A DNA stretch of 64,000 bases from Mimachlamys varia (lineage: Eukaryota; Mollusca; Bivalvia; Pectinida; Pectinidae): positions 62,557,686 to 62,621,685 of the forward strand of contig OX392529.1 in the NCBI GenBank assembly GCA_947623455.1. The letters run 5' to 3'. Below, piece after piece: positions 1 to 61,885 of the stretch; position 1 is the first letter of the stretch; every line of letters begins with the position of its first letter. Made by a program: the position numbers and the translations under genes. A model generated the notes under the pieces. It saw nothing but the letters and a program-made list of their open reading frames with translations. It made no database searches and had not been told where the DNA came from.

Positions 1-1242
1 CGATTACATCTATCCGGTAAGTACTATAGCCAAATACCACAACCCCGACTACATCTATCCGGTAAGTACTATAGCCAAATACCACACCCGCGACTACATC
101 TACCCGGTAAGTACTATAGCCAAATACCACAACCCCGACTACATCTATCCAGTAAGTACTGTAGCCAAATACCACACCCACCACTACATCTATCCTGTAA
201 GTACTGTAGCCAAATACCACACCCGCAACTACATCTATCCAGTAAGTATTGTAGCCAAATACCACACCCGCAACTACATCTATCCAGTAAGTACTGTAGC
301 CAAATACCACACCCGCAACTACATCTATCCAGTAAGTATTGTAGCCAAATACCACACCCGCAACTACATCTATCCAGAAAGTACTGTAGCCAAATACCAC
401 ACCCGCAACTACATCTATCCAGTAAGTACTGTAGCCAAATACCACACCCGTGACTACATCTATCCTGTAAGTACTGTAGCCAAATACCACACCCGCAACT
501 ACATCTATCCAGTAAGTACTGTAGCCAAATACCACACCCGTGACTACATCTATCCAGTAAGTACTGTAGCCAAATACCACAACCGTGACTACATCTATCC
601 AGTAAGTACTGTAGCCAAATACCACACCCGTGACTACATCTATCCAGTAAGTACTGTAGCCAAATACCACACCCGTGACTACATCTATCCTGTAAGTACT
701 GAAGCCAAATACCACACCCGCGACTACATCTATCTGGTAAGTACTGTAGCCAAATACCACACCCGTGACTACATCTATCCTGTAAGTACTGTAGCCAAAT
801 ACCACACCCGCGACTACATCTATCCGGTAAGTACTGTAGCCAAATACCACACCCGTGACTACATCTATCCTGTAAGTACTGTAGCCAAATACCACACCCG
901 CGACTACATCTATCTGGTAAGTACTGTAGCCAAATACCACACCCGCGACTACATCTATCTGGTAAGTACTGTAGCCAAATACCACATCCGCAACTACATT
1001 TATCTTGTAAGTACTGTAGCCAAATACCACATCCGCAACTACATCTATCCGGTAAGTATTGTAGCCAAATACCACATCCGCAACTACATCTATCCGGTAA
1101 GTACTGTAGCCAAATACCACATCCGCAACTACATCTATCCGGTAAGTACTGTAGCCAAATACCACATCCGCAACTACATCTATCCGGTAAGTACTGTAGC
1201 CAAATACCACACCCATGACTACATCTATCCGGTAAGTACTGT
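1..1242 (+). repeat. 45-bp minisatellite made of KMT2C/D exon 3' end plus its splice donor
   Basis: Units start at 1, 46, 91 and so on every 45 bases; there are 27 full copies and a 27-base partial copy, and the array runs off the left edge. Each unit reads as about 33 exon-like bases followed by a consensus donor, CCG|GTAAGTACT. The frame starting at base 2 stays open without a stop until the TAA at 1292-1294 and encodes DYIYPVSTVAKYHTR per unit. The exon-like part ends YHTRDYIYP in phase 0, exactly the phase needed to join the next exon, which begins VGYKSS at 1367. Animal KMT2C/D proteins have a similar H...YPVGY stretch entering FYRN, so the unit is inferred to derive from the upstream KMT2C/D exon-intron border. 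Copies differ mainly before the donor (CCG, CCA, CCT or CTG) and one near 376 has GAAAGT instead of GTAAGT. The last donor is at 1232 and continues into unique intron sequence. Confidence 0.9.
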
Positions 1243-1366
1243 TACATGGAAAATATCACCAAAAACAATAAACAAAATGGATAAGGATTTCTAATCAGGA
1301 ATATTCGAGCGAGAAAGATGGATTGATTGACATGTACTTTAACTTAATAATCTGGTTTTTTTTAAG

Positions 1367-4240
1367 GTTGGCTATAAATCGAGTCGTTTTTACTGGAGTA
1401 TGCGTCGGCTTTACAAACGATGTCGATACGTGTGCAGCATCTTTGAGAACGAAGGTCAGCCAGGATTTAAGATCCAAGTGGTAGAGCGGGGATTTGAGGA
1501 CTTGGTGATGGAAGATATCACACCTCGTGGGGTCTGGTCCAAGATCCTAGAGCCGCTCGACAAGATGAGAAAGAATGCAGATCTTGTCAAAATCTTCCCC
1601 AACTTTATCACTGGGGAAGAGCTGTTTGGTCTAACAGAGCCCACCATCATCAGGGTCCTCGAGTCAGTAAGTGTAACTTTTAGAAATTCCACCTTGGAAA
1701 AAGTAGAAGTTTAACTCTACATGAAGAAATATTTGAACTCTTCTAATTCAAAGGTTTGAATAGTTCATAATTGAATCAATTTTCACATCAAATGGAGTGG
1801 AACCAAAGTAACTGGGGGTAGCCATATATAATGAATTTCAGGGGTGAATGAGCAAGTAACTCATTGAATGCAGCTGCTTTACTTTTAACAACGGTATAGC
1901 TATTGCTATGGTAATGTCTAATAGCTACTGTCTATTTATTTCTCTCCAGCTACCCGGAACTGACCAGCTCACTAACTATCACTTCAAGTTTGGTCGGTCA
2001 TCACTCATTGACATGCCTCTCCTGATCAACCCAACAGGCTGTGCCAGAACAGAGCCGAAAATGCGCACCCACTTCAGGAGGTAAGGCCCACTGCATAGTG
2101 GCCAAGTCTGATCTTAAACAGCATGTTATGTTACACAGTTAAAGACGTTGACACAGCACAGAGGTTATACAGGTTCAGAGTTCAGAGGGCAAACATAGAT
2201 AGGATTTCAGTTGGTGGTATAAAGGTCAAATGTTGGTGCAGAGGTCAAACATATATAAAAACATAATGGTATTATGTTTGACTATATATTGTGTGTGACT
2301 GTTATGTCTTGTTTTGTAATTCTTAAATTCTCGTTTTACAGACCCCACACTCTGCAGTCTAGCAACACATCTCGTTCACTGCCCACCACAGTCACCGGGG
2401 TGACTGGTGACCTCAACTCCCCATACATGAAACAGTTTGTCCACTCAAAGTCTCAACAGTACCGACGCCTCAAGACAGAGTGGAAAAACAATGTGTACCT
2501 TGGACGCTCCAGGATCCAGGTAAGACCTGAAGTCAGATCGGCAATCAACCTGTTTCTTTATGATACTCTACCACATGTTTCATGTTATTTCAATGTTTAA
2601 GGTAGAACTTGGCTTGAGGCTTGAACCAAAAGGTTGGAGCTCATTGAAAATTAATTTGGATGTTAAGTGGCTTTAGATTTAAAGATCAATCGTTAATATT
2701 TTGTTTTTTTTTATTTCTGTGGTTATGTTTGTAAAATTGAAATGCAATTGGTTATGATGAAATATTGGTGTCATTGGTGGGAAGTTATCTTTTACTTGTG
2801 GTGAAATATTGGTGTCAGTGGTGGGAAGTTATGTTAAACTTGAGATGAAATATTGGTGTCAGTGGTGGGAAGTTATCTTTTACTTATGAAATATTGGTGT
2901 CAGTGTTGGGAAGTTATTTTTAACTTGTGAAATATTGGTGTCAGTGTTGGGAAGTTATCTTTTACTTGTGAAATATTGGTGTCAGTGGTGGGAAGTTTTC
3001 TTTTAATGATGACGAAATATTGGTGTCAGTGGTGGGAAGTTATCGTTTACTGATGATGAAATATTGGTGTCAGCGGTGGGAAGTTTTCTTTTACTTATGA
3101 AATATTGGTGTCAGCGGTGGGAAGTTTTCTTTTACTTTTAAGGAAATATTGGTGTCAGTAGTGGGAAGTTATCTTTTACTTGAGATAAAATATTGGTGTC
3201 AATGGTGGGAAGTTATTGGTTGACTACCGTACATTCATTTAGGCGAGTCTATTATGGTTTATAATGTTGAAAGAGTTTATTTGAGGTTATCGCTCAATTG
3301 TTATGTTTTGACCATTCAGGGCCTTGGATTGTTCGCTGCCAAGGATACAGAGAAGCACACCATGGTGATTGAGTATATCGGAGACCTCATCCGTAACGAG
3401 GTGGCCAATCGTCGCGAGGTGATCTACGAAGAGCAGAATCGTGGTGTGTACATGTTCCGCATTGACAATGAGGTAGTAGTGGATGCCACTATGGCTGGTG
3501 GCCCTGCCCGCTATATCAACCACTCCTGTAACCCCAACTGTGTGGCAGAGGTGGTGGCCTTCGACAAGGAGAGCAAGATCATCATCATAACCAACCGCAA
3601 GCTCGCCAAGGGCGAGGAGGTAGGCATTCTTCAGTAAAACACTCATAACCAACCGCAATTGTACTTATTATGGTAGCCATAGATATGAGAAAGATGTGGG
3701 TGTTTTAATTGTGTATTTATTAATATTTACAGTCTACACTGATATTCACTCGATAACCATTGTACTGCAATCTAGTGTTATTTTCCAATAACTATACTTG
3801 AGAACGTGCAAAATTTCTATGACGTCGACAACAATACATGTGGGCGGAACTATGCAAATTATCCCGTAAGAATCACAATTATGTAACGTCATCAACAATT
3901 GACATGGGAGAAGCTAGCTACAGCTTATGCAAACTTCATCCTGTTACATTTATTGAACTGTTTTCACGTTTGTAAGTTTTGAAATGGAGCACAATTTACC
4001 TCGTGCTCCATTGGATTTATGATCTAATAAACTAAACAAAATCAAAGGTTAATCCTTAAGTGGATGTTTTAGGTACTGTCTATGTACAAGTGGTTCCACA
4101 ATGACTTATCGGTTTGTTTATGTGCTGTAACTTTGTGTCTTTCACAGTTGACGTATGACTACAAGTTTGACTTTGAAGACGAGCAGCACAAGATTCCCTG
4201 TTGCTGTGGAGCACCTAACTGTCGGAAGTGGATGAACTAA
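1367..4240 (+). CDS. KMT2C/D: Histone H3K4 methyltransferase KMT2C/D (trithorax-related), C-terminal exons, 5'-partial
   Basis: Exons: 1367-1666, 1950-2080, 2342-2519, 3320-3619 and 4148-4240, all with AG/GT borders and consistent phase, giving 333 residues to a TAA. In order they encode FYRN and FYRC ([34 protein letters not shown], then [13 protein letters not shown]), a linker with [19 protein letters not shown], the SET domain ([39 protein letters not shown]) and post-SET with its zinc-binding cysteines ([10 protein letters not shown]) ending RKWMN. The cofactor-binding NHSC and the catalytic tyrosine region YDY are intact. Family knowledge: this enzyme is the catalytic subunit of the nuclear COMPASS-like complex that monomethylates H3K4 at enhancers. 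The 5' part, several thousand residues in this family, is outside the window. The intron before 1367 carries the 45-bp donor array. The FYRN-FYRC-SET order and linker match KMT2C/D better than KMT2A/B. Confidence 0.95.
2757..3215 (+). repeat. Intronic tandem repeat, ~40-47 bp unit
   Basis: About ten copies of GAAATATTGGTGTCAGTGG followed by GGGAAGTTATCTTTTACTT fill the KMT2C/D intron between the linker exon (ending 2519) and the SET exon (starting 3320). Spacer length varies between units. The array ends about 100 bases before the SET-exon acceptor and contains no exon sequence. Confidence 0.85.
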
Positions 4241-12785: not shown

Positions 12786-15293
12786 ACGTAAGGTAAATTC
12801 TATTTAAAAGTGCGACGATTTAGATATATTTTAACGTACGAAGTATCCCTATTTGTTTACTTATGATTTTACAAATGTTATCAATATGATGAGTCCATTT
12901 ACAGTTAGCATCGAATAAAATATGAAGATGTTTATGGTGATCAGAAAAATCGATACCAACATTATTAAAAACTAAATTAAAATCAATCTTCAGTTTTATT
13001 TGGATTAAACTTGCCAAGCCAACTTTCTGCCCAATTATGAATTTGTTCAAGATCTCTGTTAGTTGTAGTTTCTAGTTTAAATGCAGAAGGAGAAGATACT
13101 GTTAGGGAAGTGTCATCAGCAAATTGACGGGAGAGACTGTCGAGGTTATCCGTAATATCGTTAATATACAGAAGAAAAAGAATATGACCTAGGACGGAAC
13201 CTTGAGGTACACCAGCATTAGTTATTCTAGTATTAAAAGAAACATTGTGTATGAAGACTTGTTGGTGGCGATTATGTACGTAATCAGATAACCAGTTTAA
13301 AAGTGTTCCATTTATTCCATAGCTTTTTATTTTGTGTACAAGACCTGCGTACCAAACTCGGTCAAAAGCCTTGGAAATATCACAAAAAAACAAGGCAAGT
13401 ATGATATCGTTTTTCTAAATTTTCACAAACATTATGATAGATTTCAATTAATTGATGCACTGTAGAGTGACCTGGCTGGAATCCAGATTGATATTTATAT
13501 AATAATGAGTTATCGAGTAAATAATTTTGAAGATATTTGGTAATTCCTTTTTCAAAATTTTCACTTATAGTGCTTAATAAAGCTATTGGTCTGTAAGTTG
13601 ATTAAGAGACTTTCTAACTATATGAAATAGTGGAACTGAGTATTTTCAAGCATTTGGTGACTAATTTTATCATATCCCACTGCTTTACCTAAATTTAGCG
13701 ATAAAATGATGTCAATAATATAAGTTTGAGTAAAATGTATGTTGTCAATATTACAATATGGGGCTGTTCCCAAGTCGGTATGTGGTAAAAGTACACCCGT
13801 GTCATCTAAAGTAGAGATAGATACAAAATAATTGTTTAAAATGTCAGCTTTCCGTTCGTCGTCTACTGCAATTGTATTGGAAATAGGGTCCGTCAAGGAA
13901 CTTTTAATTAATCTACGAACCAGTTTCCAGAAGCTTTTTTGATTAGTTTTTGCATAATTATCTAAAAGTCCATTTATATCAGCATAACAAATTCGTTCGT
14001 CCTACGTTTGAGATTGTTGACATGATTTCTTTGTTTTTTAAAGTTAGGTAATTTTTTCTAGAGAAAATAGTCTTTTGAGTTTTTTTGTGCAGTGTATTTC
14101 TAATTCTTATTTCACGTCTGAGTTCTGATGTAAACCACGGTTTGTGATTCGGTCAACTTAGTTGTGATGCATTTATGGGCATACTCCAAATATCGAACAC
14201 ATATCTCGTCACACGTAGAAACATGGAACTCTTGACAAAAAAGTCCAAAGAATTGAAAATAATTCAGGTGGGGCCCACTTCAACAACAAACCGAAGGTAG
14301 AAGACGGCTCGAAATGGACGCGTGTTTACAAATAGCGTGTTTCAACTGCTGCTGTACCGGTAAACGCGAAAGAATTCATCTTGAATATTGCTGATATCAG
14401 TTAATCTTGACTAAATCTATAAATATAATAATTTATTAGGCTTGATTTTCGCTTAAAGTTTTGCCGAAAGTTACGTATATTGGGCCTTTAAGGATTGCTA
14501 ATCGGTTTGTTGTATTAAGTTATTAAATTTAGGATAGTCAGCATTTTTATAACACCAAACCATGCGTTAAAATTTGTTAGAAAGAAAGACATTTAGTTTA
14601 ATTTCAACAAGGGTAGCTAGCATCATGGTTCGAAATATCCCTATCAATTTCAATGACATCGGCAAAACCAGTCACGCATGACTCACTCACGAGCACAGGG
14701 TCAGTGAGTGAAGCACGTGTATCACCTACCCGAGTAGGTTGTTGTATTACATTAGTGAACAAGTGCGTGCGGATAATATCACTAAGTTTATGATTGGTTT
14801 CAAACCGAAGTTCAACGTTAATATCACCAACTATAATCACGTGAGAGTTTTCATCAAGTGCATTTTCTATAGAATTTTCAACCCGTTTCCAAAATGGATT
14901 TACACAGCCATTTGGTCTGTATACTGAACAAAGAAGATATGAGGAGTTATTTAAAAAAATTTCAATGCAAATAGCCTCACCTGAAGGAAATTATAAGTCC
15001 AAACGGCGTTTGGCGCAGATTAGATGCGAAATATAAACGACAACACCTCACCCTGAGAGTGTTCACGGTCTTTCTGGAAAGGATTAGTATTAAAACCTTT
15101 CTTCGTCAGAGATACTATTGTCAAGATGAGATTCGGTGATACATACTACATGGAATTCGTCTGCAATGTTTTCAAGGTGAGTTAGCTTATTTCTTAGACT
15201 TCTTATGTTTAGGTGGAAAATAGTCAATTCGTCGGAAGATACACCAGGCCCGGGGTTTTCATGAATGTCCATGCAAATCAATAGTAAAAGTTA
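12786..15293 (-). pseudogene. APE-type non-LTR retrotransposon ORF2 remnant (endonuclease + reverse transcriptase), disrupted
   Basis: Read on the minus strand, 15290-15090 gives the start of the endonuclease (FHLNIRSLRNKL, then VCITESHLD), 14840-14604 a later endonuclease block (IIVGDINVEL, NVIQQPTRVGD), about 14150-14030 the basic linker (KPWFTSELRREIRIR), and 13896-12820 the reverse transcriptase with DISKAFDRVW, GVPQGSVLG and the catalytic FADD. The domain order suits a Jockey/CR1-like element. Several frameshifts and stops and an inserted TTAA-type fragment (14220-14491) break it, so it cannot give a working protein as it stands. A leucine-rich stretch ending DIHENPGP lies at the 5' end and resembles a 2A recoding motif. 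A stop (TAA) lies four codons before its TTG. Confidence 0.85.
14220..14491 (-). mobile_element. One-ended fragment of the TTAA-flanked element, inside the retrotransposon
   Basis: Homologous to the right part of the element at 25387-26346. It shares AATTCAGGTGGGGCCCACTT, the AACAACAAACCGAAGGTA block and the terminus GTTACGTATATTGGGCCT followed by TTAA (14488-14491). The other terminal inverted repeat is missing. It separates the endonuclease and RT blocks, so it probably inserted after the retrotransposon did. Confidence 0.7.
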
Positions 15294-49982: not shown

Positions 49983-52900
49983 TTAATCCTCAATGGCATA
50001 CTCCATCATGTTTTCAAAGGAGAATGGTTGGAACTTGTAACCTTCACCGGAGTAAAATTTGGACTGGAACTCCACCCTGCAAATGGAAATAGATAAATAT
50101 ACACATAGAGGAAAGTAACAAATACAGTGCATTCCTTTTTATATGTTGCTTTTGTCAGACAAAAACATAACATTAACAGGTATGTGACATTAAGAGAAAC
50201 ATGTTTTTCCACTAAATCTAGTGCATTTCCAATCTCCATAACTAAAAGTAAGCTATTCAATGTACATATGAAGATGTTTCAATCTATAGATAACATTATT
50301 TCATTACAAAATCTACTTTATTTTCGTTATTTTTTATTTTCTATGTTATATTTTGTACAAGTTGTATCTGAAATGAATGGAAATGACATCATTTTCTAGA
50401 TAGTTTATGTGATTGGTTAAAAGAAACATGACATTTAAAGGAATACACCTCAAAATACATGATATTAACCAAATAAAATTACCGGTACATAGATTATAGA
50501 GAGAGAAAAATGGCGTTTGTAAAAAACATGATATTAAGAGGAATGTGACATTAACAGGAGTGATATAAAGTGGATTCCACTGTATTATATTGGGAGCTTA
50601 ACATTCAGTATACCAGTGTTATACTCTTCAGTAACCCAGCACAGGTGACCTAACCCTTCTCCATCATCAAGTTCTCAGAATAAATTCCAGAGATTCAGAT
50701 TTTATTGATCAATTGCATGGCTTATAAAGGTGTAGTATATATTATAGCTGATAATTTTTGGAATTATATTAATAATTTGTCAAAAATTTCACAAATACAT
50801 TTGACAAATAGATCTATTACTGAACCTATATGCATAAATAGCGCTGATCATAATATCAGACGTGACAATTTTGACGAGACATGTTCATATAAACGCATGC
50901 ATATATCATGCCACCATAAGACTTGTATAACTTGACTTACCAATGTAGACGGAGAGCGTGGAGGAAGGCGGACAGCCCCTCCATGACGACCAATACCACG
51001 ACAGTCAGCACCGCCCAGAAAGCGAACAGAGGTACAATAACAAACGCGCCCAGGATTCCATGGTCCATAGCCAGGCCGATGTGTAGAACCATCTTCCACA
51101 GCACCTCAGACAACTCTGTAAACAGAAATATACCGCGTCACATCACATTAGTACCACATCTAAAACGTGTTACGTATAGAAATTAACGTCACATTGGAAA
51201 ACAGTATCAAGATTTAGGAAACTTCATTGTAGAAAACAAGTTAAACAGGATTTTTGGGAAACTTGGAATTTCACATTTTGGGTTGAAATTTTATAAAATT
51301 GCTTAAGACCACCTAGAGAGAGAGTAAAAACAAGCCTGCACTAGATGTATATCATTTTTGGAAATGATAATAAGACGTTACTGGTTTAAAACATTGTGTA
51401 AATCATGTTGAAATTCAAATATTATTGGCTTTGATAGGAAAATGTAGGTCAAATCCAGCAATCAAAATCTAGTAAGTGTTACTTATCCTTATATACATCA
51501 GACATGTAAGTTTGGTGGATGTAGGACTTATGGGTACCCACAACTGACCTAAACCTTTCTTAACCTGATGTGGACAACGCCACTGACTATAAGCCCCTCT
51601 CAACTTCAGGTGGACATAACACAAGCTGCAGTATTTTGAATTGGTATTCCTAAACTTCTTTATGATTAATCAGACTTTGAAGTGAACAAACACATAACAG
51701 TTAACTAAGGGCCCAGAGTCTGCCAACAGTATGAAGGCGTGGGCTAAGCTAAGGGCCCAGAGTTTACAACACGTTATATTACGTTACTTACGGGCGTGGG
51801 CTAATCTAAGGGCCCAGAGTCTACAACACGTTATATTACGTTACTTACGGGCGTGGGCTAAGCTAAGGGCCCAGAGTCTACATCACGTTATATTTTGTTA
51901 CTTACGGGCGTGGGCTAAGCTAAGGGCCCAGAGTCTACAACATGTTATATGTCATTACTTACGGGCGTGGGCTAAGCTAAGGGCCCAGAGTCTACAACAC
52001 GTTATATTACGTTACTTACGGGCATGGGCTAAGCTAAGGGCCCAGAGTCTGCCAACAGTATGAAGGCGTGGACTAAGCTTAGGGCCCAGAGTCTACAACA
52101 CGTTATATTTCGTTACTACTTACGGGCGTGGGCTAAGCTAAGGGCCCAGAGTCTACAACACCTTATATTTCGTTACTACTTACGGGCGTGGGCTAAGCTA
52201 AGGGCCCAGAGTCTACATCACGTTATATTTTGTTACTTACGGGCGTGGGCTAAGCTAAGGACCCAGATTTTACCACACGTTATATTTCATTACTTACGGG
52301 CCTGGGCTAAGCTAAGGGCCCAGAGTTTACAACACGTTATATCTTGTTACTAAAAGGCGTGGGCTAAGCTAAGGGCCCAGAATCTACAACACGTTATATT
52401 TCCTTACTTACGGGCATGGGCTAAGCTTAGGGCCCAGAGTCTACAACACGTTATATTTCCTTACTTACGGGCATGGGCTAAGCTAAGGGCCCAGAATCTA
52501 CAACACGTTATATTTCCTTACTTACGGGCGTGGGCTTAGCTTAGGGCCCAGAGTCTACAACACGTTATATTTCCTTACTTACGGGCATTGGCTAAGCTTA
52601 GGGCCCAGAGTCTACAACACGTTATATAATGTTACTTACGGGCGTGGGCTAAGCTAAGGGACCAGAGTCTACAACACGTTATATTTCATTACTTACGGGC
52701 GTGGGCTAAGCTAAGGGCCCAGTGTCTACAACACGTTATATTCTGTTACTTACGGGCGTGGGCTAAGCTAAGGGCCCAGAGTCGGAGGTAGGAGGCTGTG
52801 TGGGAGATGCAGCCCAGACAGTACTCAATGGTGTGTATAGACTGATGAACAAATATTTCCTCAAAGTTGAATTCCTGTAAAAAGAGCAGTCAAGGTAAGT

Positions 52901-55900
52901 AACATTGTACCAATAGTGTGTCACATTACAGTACTATAGATCCATCAAAATAAAGCGGACCTATTGTCTCATAGCACAGCATTATAGATCTATTGAAATA
53001 AAGCGGACTTCTTGTGTCCCATTACAGCATTATAGATCTTTTGAAATAAAGCGGACTTATTGTTTCACAATACAAAGTGTAGATCTATCAAAACAGAGCC
53101 GACCTATTGTGTCACATTACAGCATTGTAGATCTATCAAAACAGAGCCGACTTATTGTCCTACATTACAGTATTGTAAACCTATCAAACAGAGCCAACTT
53201 ATTGTCTCATATTACAGCATTATAAACCTATCAAAACAGCCGACTTATTGTCTCACGTACATTACAGAATTGTAAACCTATCAAAACAGAGCCGACTTAT
53301 TGTGTCACATTACAGTATTGTAGACCAATCAAAACAGAGCCGACTTATTGTCTCATATTACAGAATTGTAGATCTATCAAAATAGAGCCGACTTATTGTC
53401 TCATATTACAGCATTGTAGACCAATCAAAACAGAGCCGACTTATTGTCTCATATTACAGAATTGTAGACCAATCAAAACAGAGCCGACTTATTGTCTCAT
53501 ATTACAGAATTGTAGATCTATCAAAACAGAGCCGACTTATTGTCTCACATTACAGCATTGTAGACCAATCAAAACAGAGCCGACTTATTGTCTCATATTA
53601 CAGCATTGTAGACCAATCAAAACAGAGCCGACTTATTGTCTCATATTACAGAATTGTAGACCAATCAAAACAGAGCCGACTTATTGTCTCATATTACAGC
53701 ATTGTAGACCAATCAAAACAGAGCCGACTTATTGTCTCATATTACAGAATTGTAGACCTATCAAAACAGCCGACTTATTGTCTCACATTACAGCATTGTA
53801 AACCAATGAAAACAGAGCCAACTTATTGTCTCATATTACAGCATTATAAACCTATCAAAACAGCCGACTTATTGTCTCACGTACATTACAGAATTGTAGA
53901 TCTATCAAAACAGAGCCAACTTATTGTGTCACATTACAGCATTGTAGACCTATCAAACAGAGCCAACTTATTGTCTCATATTACAGCATTATAAACCTAT
54001 CAAAACAGCCGACTTATTGTCTCACGTACATTACAGAATTGTAAACCTATCAAAACAGAGCCGACTTATTGTGTCACATTACAGCATTGTAGACCTATCA
54101 AAACAGCCGACTTATTGCCTCACATTACAGCATTGTAGACCTATCAAACAGAGCCAACTTATTGTCGCATATTACAGCATTGTAGACCTATCAAAACAGA
54201 GCCGACTTATTGTCTCATATTACAGCATTGTAAACCTATCAAAACAGAGCCGACTTATTGTCTCATATTACAGCATTGTAAACCTATCAAAACAGAGCCG
54301 ACTTATTGTCTCATATTACAGCATTGTAGACCTATCAAAACAGAGCCGACTTATTGTCTCATATTACAGCATTGTAGATCTATCAAAATAGAGATCTATC
54401 AAAATAGAGACCTATCAAAATAGGGCCGACATATGAACAAATATTTATGTGAAAAAAAACCTCACTAATAATGTAAAGGGAAGTCAGACATTTCTATACT
54501 TTTGTCTCAATTAAATTAAACTTTCAGGTGAATGAATATAAGATGACTGACCAAGTCATTTTTGTGAGAAAAAACCCTCGTAAAAGTTCAAGAGAATAAG
54601 ACCATGTGTTCTGGAAGAGTAAGCGTCTTCTGCTTCATCAACGATGAATTAAGATTACGAGAACCAATTACACAAAGCTAGAAATGCTACATACATCGTA
54701 TATAGAACAACAGGACAATCAGACTTAATGGTCATCATAGAAATGTTTGAGAGACCTTTTCTGAAACAATTCTCTAATACTCTCATTTAAACTCCATCCA
54801 GATGACATTTAGGCCTTAATTTTTGTACTATAAAACTTTCACCATAATAATTAATTTGACCAAGTTTGATTTTTTCCCCTTGAAAATAAACAAAAGATAG
54901 CGTTGATTCCCTTAAAAAATCAATCGGAAATGTACCCCCTCTCCAGGGTAATAGGTGACCAGGGTCTAATGAAATTAACAGTCTCGATAAAGCACTTGGA
55001 TACTTGGTAAAAGGTGTATACACTATCTAATACACCACGAGACCAATACGAAACCATGATATTTCATTGGGCTGACAGGATAATAATGTGTTTGATAGCA
55101 TATCGGACAGACATACATGATAGGGTCAATACAATTCATCTGACAGTATCTACTTATAGACCAATGTATGAATCCACAACAATGAGAAATTATCATGCAT
55201 TATATCTTAATCCTCACAAGATGCTAGTATCAACATGCTTAGTTGATAGGTACTCTAAGGCAGGTATGGGAACATCGTCGGAAACCCACGTGGCACAGGG
55301 CTTACGTTTGTGTCCAGAGGGGCTAGAACAGACGGAGAATTTCATTCCCCGAATAGAAGTCTAATTCGGAGATTTTGACCAATCATAATGGTTGTTTCTT
55401 GTGGCACTTGGTTAGATCATTTTACATTTTACCTTGGTATATTTCTGTAGGCATGACGCGGATGTCAATGTCCGGTAGGACTTATTGTCCCTTGTGTTGT
55501 TCAAACACAACCCACAGGTTTTATTTCGGAAGGCGATCCCGCCGTCATATTTGTTTGTATTGTACAGCTACAAATGGGATATCCCGGCCAGATGTTAAGC
55601 CATGGTAGAAAGAAGCAATATGATTGACTACTATTTTGAGTACCAGCACGAGATTTTCCGTCTGTTCTAGCCCACGGGACACAAATGTAAGAGCCCGTGT
55701 TACGAGAGTTTCTGACAATCGTATAGGATTTACGTATGTGTACATACTACTGTGTTGTCTATCACTGAAGCACATCTGTCAATACTAAACCATGTAGCCA
55801 GTTCATTTTTCTCTGATCTAAATTTCTTGATAAATACTTAAAATGATCACATTATTTACATTGAATTAAATTTCATAATTTGGATATTAAAAAAATACTT

Positions 55901-58900: not shown

Positions 58901-61885
58901 AAACACTGTCAATTATACCGGTGTATTTATAATTACTAATCACTGTCAATTATACCGGTGTATTTATAATTACTAATCACTGTCAATTGTACCGGTGTAT
59001 TTATAATTACTAATCACTGTCAATTATACAGGTGTGTTTATAATTACTAATCACTGTCAATTACACCGGTGTAATTATAATTACTAATCACTGTCAATTA
59101 TACCGGTGTAATTATAATTACTAATCACTGTGAATTATACCGGTGTAATTATAATCACTAATCACTGTCAATTATACCGGTGTAATTATAATTACTAATC
59201 ACTGTCAATTTTACCGGTGTAATTATAATTACTAATCACTGTCAATTATACCGGTGTAATTATAATTACTAATCACTGTCAATTATACCGGTGTAATTAT
59301 AATCACTAAACACTGTCAATTATACCGGTGTAATTATAATTACTAAACACTGTCAATTATACCGGTGTAATTATAATTACTTAACACTGTCAATTATACC
59401 GGTGTATTTATAATTACTAATCACTATCAATTATACCGGTGTAATTATAATAACTAATCACTGTCAATTATACCGGTGTAATTATAATTACTAATCACTG
59501 TCAATTATACCGGTGTAATTATAATTACTAATCACTGTCAATTATACCGGTGTATTTATAATTACTAATCACTGTCAATTATACCGGTGTAATTGTAATT
59601 ACTAATCACTGTCAATTATACCGGTGTAATTATAATTACTAATCACTATCAATTATACCGGTGTATTTATAGTTACTAGTCACTGTAATTATAATTACTA
59701 ATCACTGTCAATTATACCGGTGTAATTATAATTACTAAACACTGTCAATTATACCGGTGTAATTATAATTACTAATCACTGTCAATTATACTGGTGTATT
59801 TATAATTACTAATCACTGTCAATTATACCAGTGTTATTATAATTACTAAACACTGTCAATTATACCGGTGTAATTATAATTACTAATCACTGTCAATTAT
59901 ACTGGTGTATTTATAATTACTAATCACTGTCAATTATACCAGTGTATTTATAATTACTAAACACTGTCAATTATACTGGTGTTATTATAATTACTAATCA
60001 CTGTCAATTATACCCGTGTATTTATTATTACTAAACACTGTCAATTATACCGGTGTATTTATAATTACTAATCACTGTCAATTATACCGGTGTAATTATA
60101 ATTACTAAACACTGTCAATTATACTGGTGTAATTATAATTACTAATCACTGTCAATTATACCGGTGTATTTATAATTACTAATCACTGTCAATTATACCG
60201 GTGTAATTATAATTACTAATCCCTGTCAATTATACCGGTGTAATTATAATTACTAATCACTGTCAATTATACCGGTGTAATTATAATTACTAATCACTGT
60301 CAATTATACCGGTGTATTTATAATTACTAATCACTGTCAATTATACCGGTGTAATTATAATTACTAATCCCTGTCAATTATACCAGTGTAATTATAATTA
60401 CTAATCACTGTCAATTATACCAGTGTATTTATAATTACTAAACACTGTCAATTATACCGGTGTAATTATAATTACTAATCACTGTCAATTATACCGTTGT
60501 AATTATAATTACTAAACACTGTCAATTATACCGGTGTAATTATAATTGCTAATCACTGTCAATTATACCGGTGTAATTATAATTACTAATCACTGTCAAT
60601 CATTACTACACATTAGCTGCTATGTAACTTTTCCCAGGTGCCAAATGTTAATAATAAATGTGCTTTACATAAATTGCAATTCAAAATGGCCTCTTATGCT
60701 ACAGCCCTTGACAACAAAGCTACAACATAAAGGTTTAGCAAGGCCACAGCATTCACCTCCTCAGAGTCTGTTAGTTCACCGGCCGCCATCATCCCACCGT
60801 CACCATGCTGATTGACCTCTTGAGCGTGATTCACAAGGTCACCGCTCTGAACGGACAATTGCTGATGTTTGAACTGTGAGTGGCGATAAAAGTAAAAACA
60901 TATGTCTGAATATAAATCTGAATCCTCTGTGAATGTATTGTGTTAATTATCTGGTGCTGGGTCTCGCTGCCTTCTGGAATGCTGGTCTGCTCCTCTAAGC
61001 ACTATCACTAGAAGCATTCTTTAGGGTTAATGCTGTTTGTCAGTCTGTTGCCATGGAAACGATTCGTGGAAGGACTGGATTGGGAATGATGATTTTCAAG
61101 CGAACACTACCTTTCAGCATTTCTATGAGGAGGGTTGTTCAACACCAATTTACCTTCAAATATTTATTTAGTTTTGAAATAATCTCAGATAGATTACTCT
61201 TACATCTAACAAGAAAATTTAATTAAGCAAAAGATTTTTCTCACGACATGTAGGCCTACATGCTACAGATTTATTCAGTCCCATTTATATAAAAAAAAAA
61301 ATATTTCAATGAAGTCACAGAAACTGAAACAATTAACTGATTTGCAATTTGTTTACTAGTAAAAGATCTGTTTCATTCAAATCGCAAGTTTACTGATCAA
61401 AACAAACAAATATAATTTATTCCCTAAAAGTTATCAATCCTGACCCTAAGACCTAAAATACACAAAGAACACTAACGGCATCACATGGCCAGTGGTCACA
61501 TGTGACAGGAATCCTTAATTCAAGGCTCCTTGTATGCAGTATTTTCTAATTTTATTTCAGTGTTATCATAACATTTCATAGACTGTGCTATAAGGAAGAC
61601 GAATATCTGCTGAAGTTCCTGAAAATTTAAAACAAAATATGAATACGCCCACTATTAGTTACACCCTCATATACACCATCTGGTCCAGTCCTCGTTTCCA
61701 TCACCACAGACATGCATGGAAAAACAAAATTTCAACCAATCGTGTATGAGTATGGTAGTCACCTCCTCCTCCTCCTCGTGCTCCTTGCCGGCTTTGTCAG
61801 GGTTGTCTGTGTGGTAGATGACTTCTTCTTCCTCCTCCTCCATCAGAGGAACACTCTCGTATTGTGACTTACCACACCTACCAGA
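49983..61885 (-). CDS. ATP6V0A: V-type H+-ATPase V0 subunit a, C-terminal exons, 5'-partial
   Basis: Exons, 5' to 3' on the minus strand: 61885-61763, 60873-60757, 52874-52754, 51115-50941 and 50076-49983 (stop). They join in phase to 209 codons plus TAA. The first two encode a hydrophilic acidic loop ([32 protein letters not shown]). The third has [20 protein letters not shown] and [12 protein letters not shown], with the arginine that is essential for proton transport in this family. The fourth has a membrane segment ([23 protein letters not shown]) and [13 protein letters not shown], and the last ends [20 protein letters not shown]. Subunit a lines the proton half-channels against the c-ring. 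Family length is about 800-850 residues, so roughly three quarters lie beyond the window edge. The intron after the third exon carries the 57-bp donor array. Confidence 0.95.
50123..50584. mobile_element. TA-flanked non-autonomous DNA transposon (458 bp), copy 2
   Basis: TA then CAGTGCATTCC at 50125, and GGATTCCACTG ending 50582, then TA. It is homologous over its length to 31001-31476. It lies in the last intron of the V-ATPase gene. Confidence 0.75.
51116..51735 (-). other. Intron of the V-ATPase subunit a gene, single-copy part
   Basis: AT-rich intronic sequence between the exon ending at 51115 and the 57-bp array. Nothing else recognised. Confidence 0.5.
51736..52790 (-). repeat. 57-bp minisatellite made of V-ATPase exon 3' end plus its splice donor
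   Basis: On the minus strand each unit reads GACTCTGGGCCCTTAGCTTA, then GCCCACGCCC, then the donor GTAAGTAAC and about 18 more intron bases. The first 30 bases equal the end of the genuine exon (LWALSLAHA plus one base of the next codon), whose own donor is at 52753. About 19 copies extend downstream into the intron; starts at 51737, 51794, 51851, 51908 and 51965 are exactly 57 apart. One unit (51.99-52.06 kb) is shortened to 44 bases and some carry a TACTAC insertion. In the V-ATPase frame each copy gives CGT AAG TAA, a stop right after the donor. One marker, GCCAACAGTATGAAGGCGTG, appears at both 51722 and 52051, showing a duplicated sub-block. Confidence 0.92.
52930..54425 (+). repeat. ~46-bp tandem array upstream of the V-ATPase third exon
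   Basis: About 32 copies of CAGAGCCGACTTATTGTCTC followed by ATATTACAGCATTGTAGACC and TATCAAAA. It lies in the 7.9-kb intron between 60757 and 52874, close to the acceptor. On the + strand each unit holds a pyrimidine-rich stretch and ATTACAG, but the gene is on the other strand. Confidence 0.9.
54426..56159 (-). other. V-ATPase intron, mostly single-copy, holding a foldback element
   Basis: No exon was recognised. The foldback repeat at 55274-55722 is described separately; the remainder is AT-rich. Confidence 0.45.
55274..55722. mobile_element. Foldback element with ~70-bp imperfect terminal inverted repeats
   Basis: CGTCGGAAACCCACGTGGCA and GGGGCTAGAACAGACGGA (to about 55338) are mirrored by TCCGTCTGTTCTAGCCCACG and GAGTTTCTGACAATCG (about 55659-55724). 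The loop is about 310 bp. No transposase is encoded; target duplications were not identified. Confidence 0.65.
56165..56695 (+). repeat. ~20-bp tandem array (ATTATGTATATACCCTGTAA)
   Basis: About 26 copies with variants CCCTATAA, CCCAGTAA and TGTACC. It is intronic in the V-ATPase gene. Confidence 0.9.
56696..57340 (-). other. V-ATPase intron, single-copy part
   Basis: AT-rich; a minus-strand frame at 57128-57388 has no family features and runs into the array. Confidence 0.4.
57346..60598 (+). repeat. 37-bp array, ~88 copies (3.25 kb), with higher-order structure
   Basis: The unit is ACTAATCACTGTCAATTATA followed by CCGGTGTAATTATAATT. Variants alternate TAATTATAATT/TATTTATAATT, AATCACT/AAACACT and ACCGG/ACCAG/ACTGG. 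A marker unit, CTAGTCACTGTAATTAT, occurs at 57671, 58544 and 59676; the block around the first recurs after 873 bases with the same variant order, showing a higher-order duplication. The array ends about 160 bases short of exon 60757-60873. Confidence 0.95.

Follow-up and report, generated by a model that had tools for sequence, protein, structure and literature searches.

The gene for V-ATPase subunit a in Mimachlamys varia carries, directly adjoining its coding exon at 52874-52754 (minus strand), a tandem array of 19 units in which the end of the exon and the beginning of the following intron are repeated together. At a probability of roughly four in five, we read this array as a donor-type mirage: the exon-intron border was duplicated, the duplication grew as a minisatellite, and the result is tolerated while the exon's own donor continues to be used. 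Positions are those of the window, i.e., the whole stretch of 64,000 nucleotides that was analysed, and are continued beyond its edges where stated.

The exon (52754..52874, minus strand) ends in phase 1 with ...CGA CTC TGG GCC CTT AGC TTA GCC CAC GCC C, followed by GTAAGTAAC, and the repeat has its genuine first copy in the final 30 bases of this exon. The array extends over 52783-51721 (minus strand), is followed by a 16-base stub (51720-51705), and is held by the intron 52753-51116 (minus strand), whose genuine donor, C|GTAAGTAA, lies at 52746..52754 on the same strand. Downstream, the next exon (50941..51115, minus strand) starts with AG|TTG (AG|TTGTCTGAG) after TTTACAG, and the last coding exon (49983..50076, minus strand) ends with the stop TAA; upstream, the preceding exon (60757..60891, minus strand, upstream edge approximate) corresponds to amino acids 672-716 of P0003, the Ylistrum balloti protein used as tblastn query for the V-ATPase exons. 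A full unit consists of the exon part GACTCTGGGCCCTTAGCTTAGCCCACGCCC (30 bases) and 27 intron bases, the latter beginning with GTAAGTAAC in the real copy and comprising a start of that type plus 18 more bases. When the 19 units were read one by one, 15 were 57 bases long, two were 60 (with an extra GTA) and two were 44, these last (52093-52050 and 51764-51721, minus strand) being without the donor. Tandem Repeats Finder (TRF), used throughout for array calls, reported 51736-52783 with a period of 57, 18.5 copies and 84% matches. CCC|GTAAGTA is kept in 16 of the 19 units, the genuine one counted, while GTAAGT is missing in units c07, c12, and c18. Of the 16 other full-length units compared, 5 match the real exon end base for base in their exon part; this comparison excluded the stub and both 44-bp units and was made with the GTA insertion removed. 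A 30-mer that recurs from unit to unit at a constant distance from the exon boundary is more than chance could plausibly give.

An earlier note on this DNA had described an exon-end and splice-donor minisatellite of this composition, with the genuine exon as its first member and about 19 copies running into the intron. Both the unit-by-unit reading and TRF bear this description out, with 19 units and the stub counted, and unit c00 is the end of exon 52874-52754, which is coding by tblastn with P0003. The duplicated exon part does code for LWALSLAHA, as had been stated, and its first two bases are positions 2 and 3 of the Arg codon that comes before; we take this arginine to be the one essential for proton transport. 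Separately, a 48-bp array of 30.8 copies (52917..54393, minus strand) ends 42 bases before the exon and outside it, and the exon has arrays on both flanks.

The assignment of the gene to V-ATPase subunit a also held. The exon was matched by tblastn both with human a1 and with P0003, and a database search with an 837-residue query, of which residues 711-837 were scored, gave 7,987 matches. Among the best 120 of these, the first was a Spodoptera model with repeated pieces (45% identity) and the second was from Ylistrum balloti, with 98% identity over the whole scored part. Beside the Ylistrum-like exon at 60891-60757 there is a likely alternative exon of the gene at about 61763-61867 (minus strand, edges by eye) that is Mytilus-like by eye, which suggests that V-ATPase a has alternative exons. 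Elsewhere in the window, open pieces at 12986-14990 (minus strand) resemble, by eye, a non-LTR retrotransposon with a reverse transcriptase (DISKAFDRVWY...).

That the array is an artefact of assembly or sequencing is scarcely credible. Assemblies can mis-size tandem arrays, and the copy number given here comes from the assembly rather than from reads; however, the units differ from one another by substitutions and by two length variants, similar arrays occur in several unlinked genes, and the genome report describes a HiFi assembly at 44-fold with a QV of 64.4 (PMC11252643). For the species, a second haplotype (GCA_947622925.1) and muscle poly(A) RNA-seq (ERR10908612) have also been deposited.

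Predicted pairing with U1 gives the true donor no advantage. In ViennaRNA duplexes with the U1 5' end, the true donor and the 15 decoys all reach -7.3 kcal/mol, and GT sites that pair equally with U1 account for 16 of 90 inside the array vs 8 of 956 outside it (64000-49983). By this predicted measure the true donor cannot be distinguished from the decoys; therefore, selection would have to depend on where the donor lies or on its exon context, and we infer that the donor is picked in one of these ways. The scallop proteins P0003 and P0123 cross the V-ATPase and KMT2C borders without an insert, and from such annotated proteins of other scallops we infer that the first donor would be the one used here as well. 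Where 5' splice sites compete in vitro, the intron-proximal one is often favoured; such a preference would let the last copy win in this array, which counts against use of the first donor. According to PMC5585400, which 5' splice site is chosen depends on bound factors and context.

Reading on past the exon leads to an in-frame TAA (Arg-Lys-stop), so that any later donor would yield a truncated frame. The TAA lies in the first intron part, and a protein-coding array was ruled out on that ground. The same stop bears on the idea that the extra copies are back-up donors that would stand in if the exon lost its splice site. An intact donor in 16 of 19 units speaks for such a role, but a back-up donor would deliver a stop codon and thus could not rescue the protein, and we regard this idea as highly improbable.

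Variation among the units fits tandem turnover. The genuine copy differs from the array consensus in 2 alignment columns, the other full-length copies in 1 to 6. Units c03-c06 carry a common GG at +9/+10, units c10 and c11 differ by 1, and units c12 and c18 have the 44-bp form in common; such private variants, common to particular groups of copies, are what turnover within an array would produce. Over 17 full-length units, 11 of the 30 exon-part columns are polymorphic, as are 2 of the 8 columns of GTAAGTAA and 8 of the 19 remaining intron columns. Variability in the donor columns is no lower than in the other columns (Fisher P 0.70; 0.046 without unit c07; the two 44-bp units left out in both cases), and with 2 of 8 columns polymorphic the donor is therefore not clearly better conserved. 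Selection on donors inside the array, which reaches significance only if that one unit is dropped, was rejected. Among the exon-part changes in the copies, 7 of 17 are synonymous, vs 19 of 81 possible single changes, which may count against the view that the array is simply tolerated. Two other candidates were set aside: an unusual secondary structure of the unit as RNA or DNA (five pieces folded, z -0.65 to 0.32), and a dispersed repeat family, the whole query matching the genome once in a search that skips very common words. Two other genome matches of the array query are the exon of a V-ATPase a paralogue and one copy of that paralogue's own border array.

A second donor-type array, in KMT2C, lies at the left edge of the window (1..1242, plus strand). 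The earlier note had reported it from the in-window part, and it proved real when its exon was located at about -880 to -749, just beyond the left edge, in window coordinates continued outward. The array begins at about -781 and has a 45-bp unit, with 45 copies by TRF and 44 further copies in the search for border copies; the exon reads ...LMPYQIISAKYHTRDYIYP, then GTAAGTACTGTA, a border fixed by reading with the Mizuhopecten KMT2C protein, and the exon after the array is at 1367..1666 (plus strand). With another unit in another gene, the V-ATPase array is independent of it, as the note had held. Throughout its in-window part the KMT2C array is open in one frame (2-1291, plus strand), so that splicing from a later donor would lengthen the protein by 15 residues per unit, without a stop; the YPVS junction of such an insert was present in none of the 10 KMT2 proteins inspected (34 found). 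Farther left, at about -19085 to -17276, a long in-frame repeat of 18 codons (IHCGTPPPENPQGVCSDG) matches the N-terminal part of Mizuhopecten KMT2C.

Border copies of both kinds are found elsewhere in the genome. Our survey covered 40 exon hits from V-ATPase a and from KMT2C from residue 770 on, the KMT2C tblastn rows below residue 770 having been dropped as coding repeats; splice borders, here and in the myosin sample below, were positioned with a simple score, which may have misplaced some of them. Border copies were present at 4 of 38 donors, although two of these four had prompted the search. In V-ATPase a they are the donor at amino acids 716-757, which is that of the 57-bp array at 52783-51721, and the donor at amino acids 350-400 (72214-71742, right of the window), with a 34-bp unit of about 28 exon and about 6 intron bases (GTAGGT); in KMT2C they lie at amino acids 779-1400 (86-bp unit) and 2277-2321. 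Among acceptors, 3 of the 37 that were properly placed (39 examined; acceptor 2342, misplaced by the script, was left out of the count) had border copies. One, at amino acids 178-219 of V-ATPase a (90500-89089, right of the window), has 16 copies, mostly 84 bp apart, that carry the exon start and lie upstream of the real exon, and the V-ATPase acceptors at amino acids 567 and 643 have one extra copy each. TRF detects just one of these three. Two further acceptor flags were false: one over the KMT2C array came from a merged hit, the true acceptor at 1367 having 0 copies, and the other marked a place inside a large KMT2C exon.

In a sample of 30 of 74 myosin-head matches from the same genome, copies were found at 3 of 30 donors, one of them clear (L038) and two arguable (L037 and L028), and at 1 of 30 acceptors, a clear case (L030); the unit at L042 has only about 6 exon bases. 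Places with three close occurrences of the donor motif CAGGTAAGT, among those listed, fall in 9 arrays, of which 4 begin in an apparent exon (L046, L050, L051, and L052), with none seen in the other 5. The L046 exon encodes a DSL domain (25.7 bits vs a Pfam cut-off of 24.2) and that of L050 resembles a sodium-dependent multivitamin transporter (PDB 26va, E 0.0018), while those of L051 and L052 are apparent from an open frame only; NCBIfam on the four exon peptides and Pfam on three of the four gave no useful identification. In two arrays, L047 (G000:C1:4171320-4171960) and L045, the unit is GTAAGT...ACAG, with junctions AG|GTAAGT like a zero-length exon, and no coding exon was seen at the array edge. 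Border repeats are present also in the V-ATPase a paralogue and in four other genes (L030, L038, L046, and L050). In the paralogue (L013:5757-6200, G000:C1) the end of the homologous exon carries a diverged border array whose 3 extra copies have all lost the donor; its greater divergence leads us to read it as older than the 57-bp array.

These arrays bear on a regulatory alternative, in which occasional use of a decoy would give a stop-bearing transcript and the copy number would tune V-ATPase subunit a via mRNA decay. Every decoy leads to the in-frame TAA, 15 decoys match the true donor in U1 pairing, and the donor columns are unchanged once unit c07 is set aside, all of which speak for such a device; but the P value of 0.046 is obtained only by that omission and with the two 44-bp units left out. 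In addition, the KMT2C array is of the same type without a stop in the open frame of its in-window part, which argues against a common poison design, and the donor has been lost in all three extra copies of the paralogue's array. We therefore consider regulation by the array distinctly improbable.

Tandem repeats are abundant around these genes: 37.5% of the 64-kb window lies in TRF arrays, and a copy is present within 2 kb for 60% of 3,000 sampled intron points in the two genes. The corresponding counts are 6 of 247 for points in mid-exon and 23 of 2,000 for points in shuffled sequence. At such a density some arrays are bound to include an exon edge. However, uniform placement of founder units in the two genes predicts 0.70 donors in arrays where 4 of 38 were seen (P 0.006), an excess that simple tolerance leaves unexplained. 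This excess is one point for another alternative, that minisatellites in this genome arise or expand preferentially at 5' splice sites, which would then be hot spots, and that the array came from a mutational process aimed at donors. Genome-wide, triple exact occurrences of CAGGTAAGT at close spacing number 7,049 (30,635 single), and only 205 (5,463 single) for its reverse; the units of the nine arrays mentioned above are unrelated by eye; and GTAAGT occurs in 7 of 79 arrays in a 261-kb sample, ranking first of 90 letter permutations (median 2). That sample, however, is gene-centred and includes arrays already known. An apparent 34-fold enrichment of donors in tandem arrays did not survive a second motif pair, GATGACAGT giving 2,188 triples (13,702 single) and its reverse 2,269 (13,518 single); every listed place for this pair lies in one giant array, which makes match counts an unfair measure. 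Expressed as triples per single occurrence, the donor motif reaches 23.0% vs 3.8%, 16.0%, and 16.8% for three controls, no clear excess. Without the two donors that prompted the search the count becomes 2 of 36, and the uniform-placement test finds acceptors in TRF arrays at only 1 of 38, where the copy-based test finds 3. An attraction of repeats to donors is not established, and since the genes were not chosen blindly and the motif counts disagree, we claim no hot spot and hold its existence to be quite unlikely.

Taken together, we favour the tolerated border duplication. A 57-base stretch over the exon-intron border (30 exon, 27 intron bases) would have been tandemly duplicated and then expanded by ordinary minisatellite turnover. 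The border-spanning unit, the real exon in first place, the variants common to groups of copies and the intact state of most extra donors are direct observations. The spliceosome would join the exon's own donor to the next exon, so that the array leaves as intron, that donor being chosen either via exon definition or by first-come commitment during transcription. Splicing at a decoy would produce Arg-Lys-stop and probably mRNA decay, because the stop sits upstream of later exon junctions. The transcript still presents the complete exon with its own donor ahead of the copies, which may be why the duplication is tolerated, and the occurrence of the same kind of event at both border types elsewhere in the genome supports this view. 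We think that no function is needed to account for the array. Border arrays seem to be common in the Mimachlamys varia genome, and extrapolation from our small samples would put them in the thousands. A stronger claim, that scallop border arrays number thousands because tandem arrays originate or persist at exon edges more than elsewhere, and that the spliceosome tolerates runs of identical donors by being strictly positional and taking the first donor after the exon, we hold to be unlikely.

Competition between donors is usually studied with two engineered sites. The V-ATPase array may offer a natural test of splice-site choice, since an essential gene here presents 16 donors whose predicted U1 pairing is equal, with a clean readout, a stop codon or not; further arrays with other spacings in the same genome would extend this test. 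In practical terms, bivalve gene prediction and variant calling need to allow for exon edges that are repeated. Among the top-ranked open-licence literature matches (the best 15 to 20 of up to 293) no mollusc border arrays were recognised, which is not proof of absence, and the only open-licence papers found to hold the title of the Adh paper were two on amphioxus. Work by Canestro et al. from 2002 is cited in the amphioxus mirage literature.

The array shares its growth, turnover and high density with ordinary intronic minisatellites, but its founder unit includes coding exon and donor. Introns can also be gained when a segment that contains splice signals is duplicated in tandem in the genome (e.g., PMC4974935), and there, too, the duplication copies splice signals; here, however, the array sits inside an existing intron and adds no new intron to the coding sequence, as the P0003 protein reads on past it and the homologous exon of the paralogue has its end at the same codon. 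The closest parallel is the amphioxus mirage. In PMC3902484, mirages are tandem repeats of the exon-intron border, found in PGBD5, Adh, and TnC, and are reported to leave regular splicing undisturbed. The V-ATPase array likewise has a border-spanning tandem unit with the genuine exon at its edge and splice signals in many, though not all, copies (GTAAGT in 16 of 19), and in both systems the 5' or the 3' border can be affected. What differs is the bivalve host, the genes (V-ATPase subunit a and KMT2C) and the size, up to about 45 copies. The kind of array is thus already known from amphioxus. A mollusc as host and so high an abundance seem to be new, and the mirage is not peculiar to cephalochordates.
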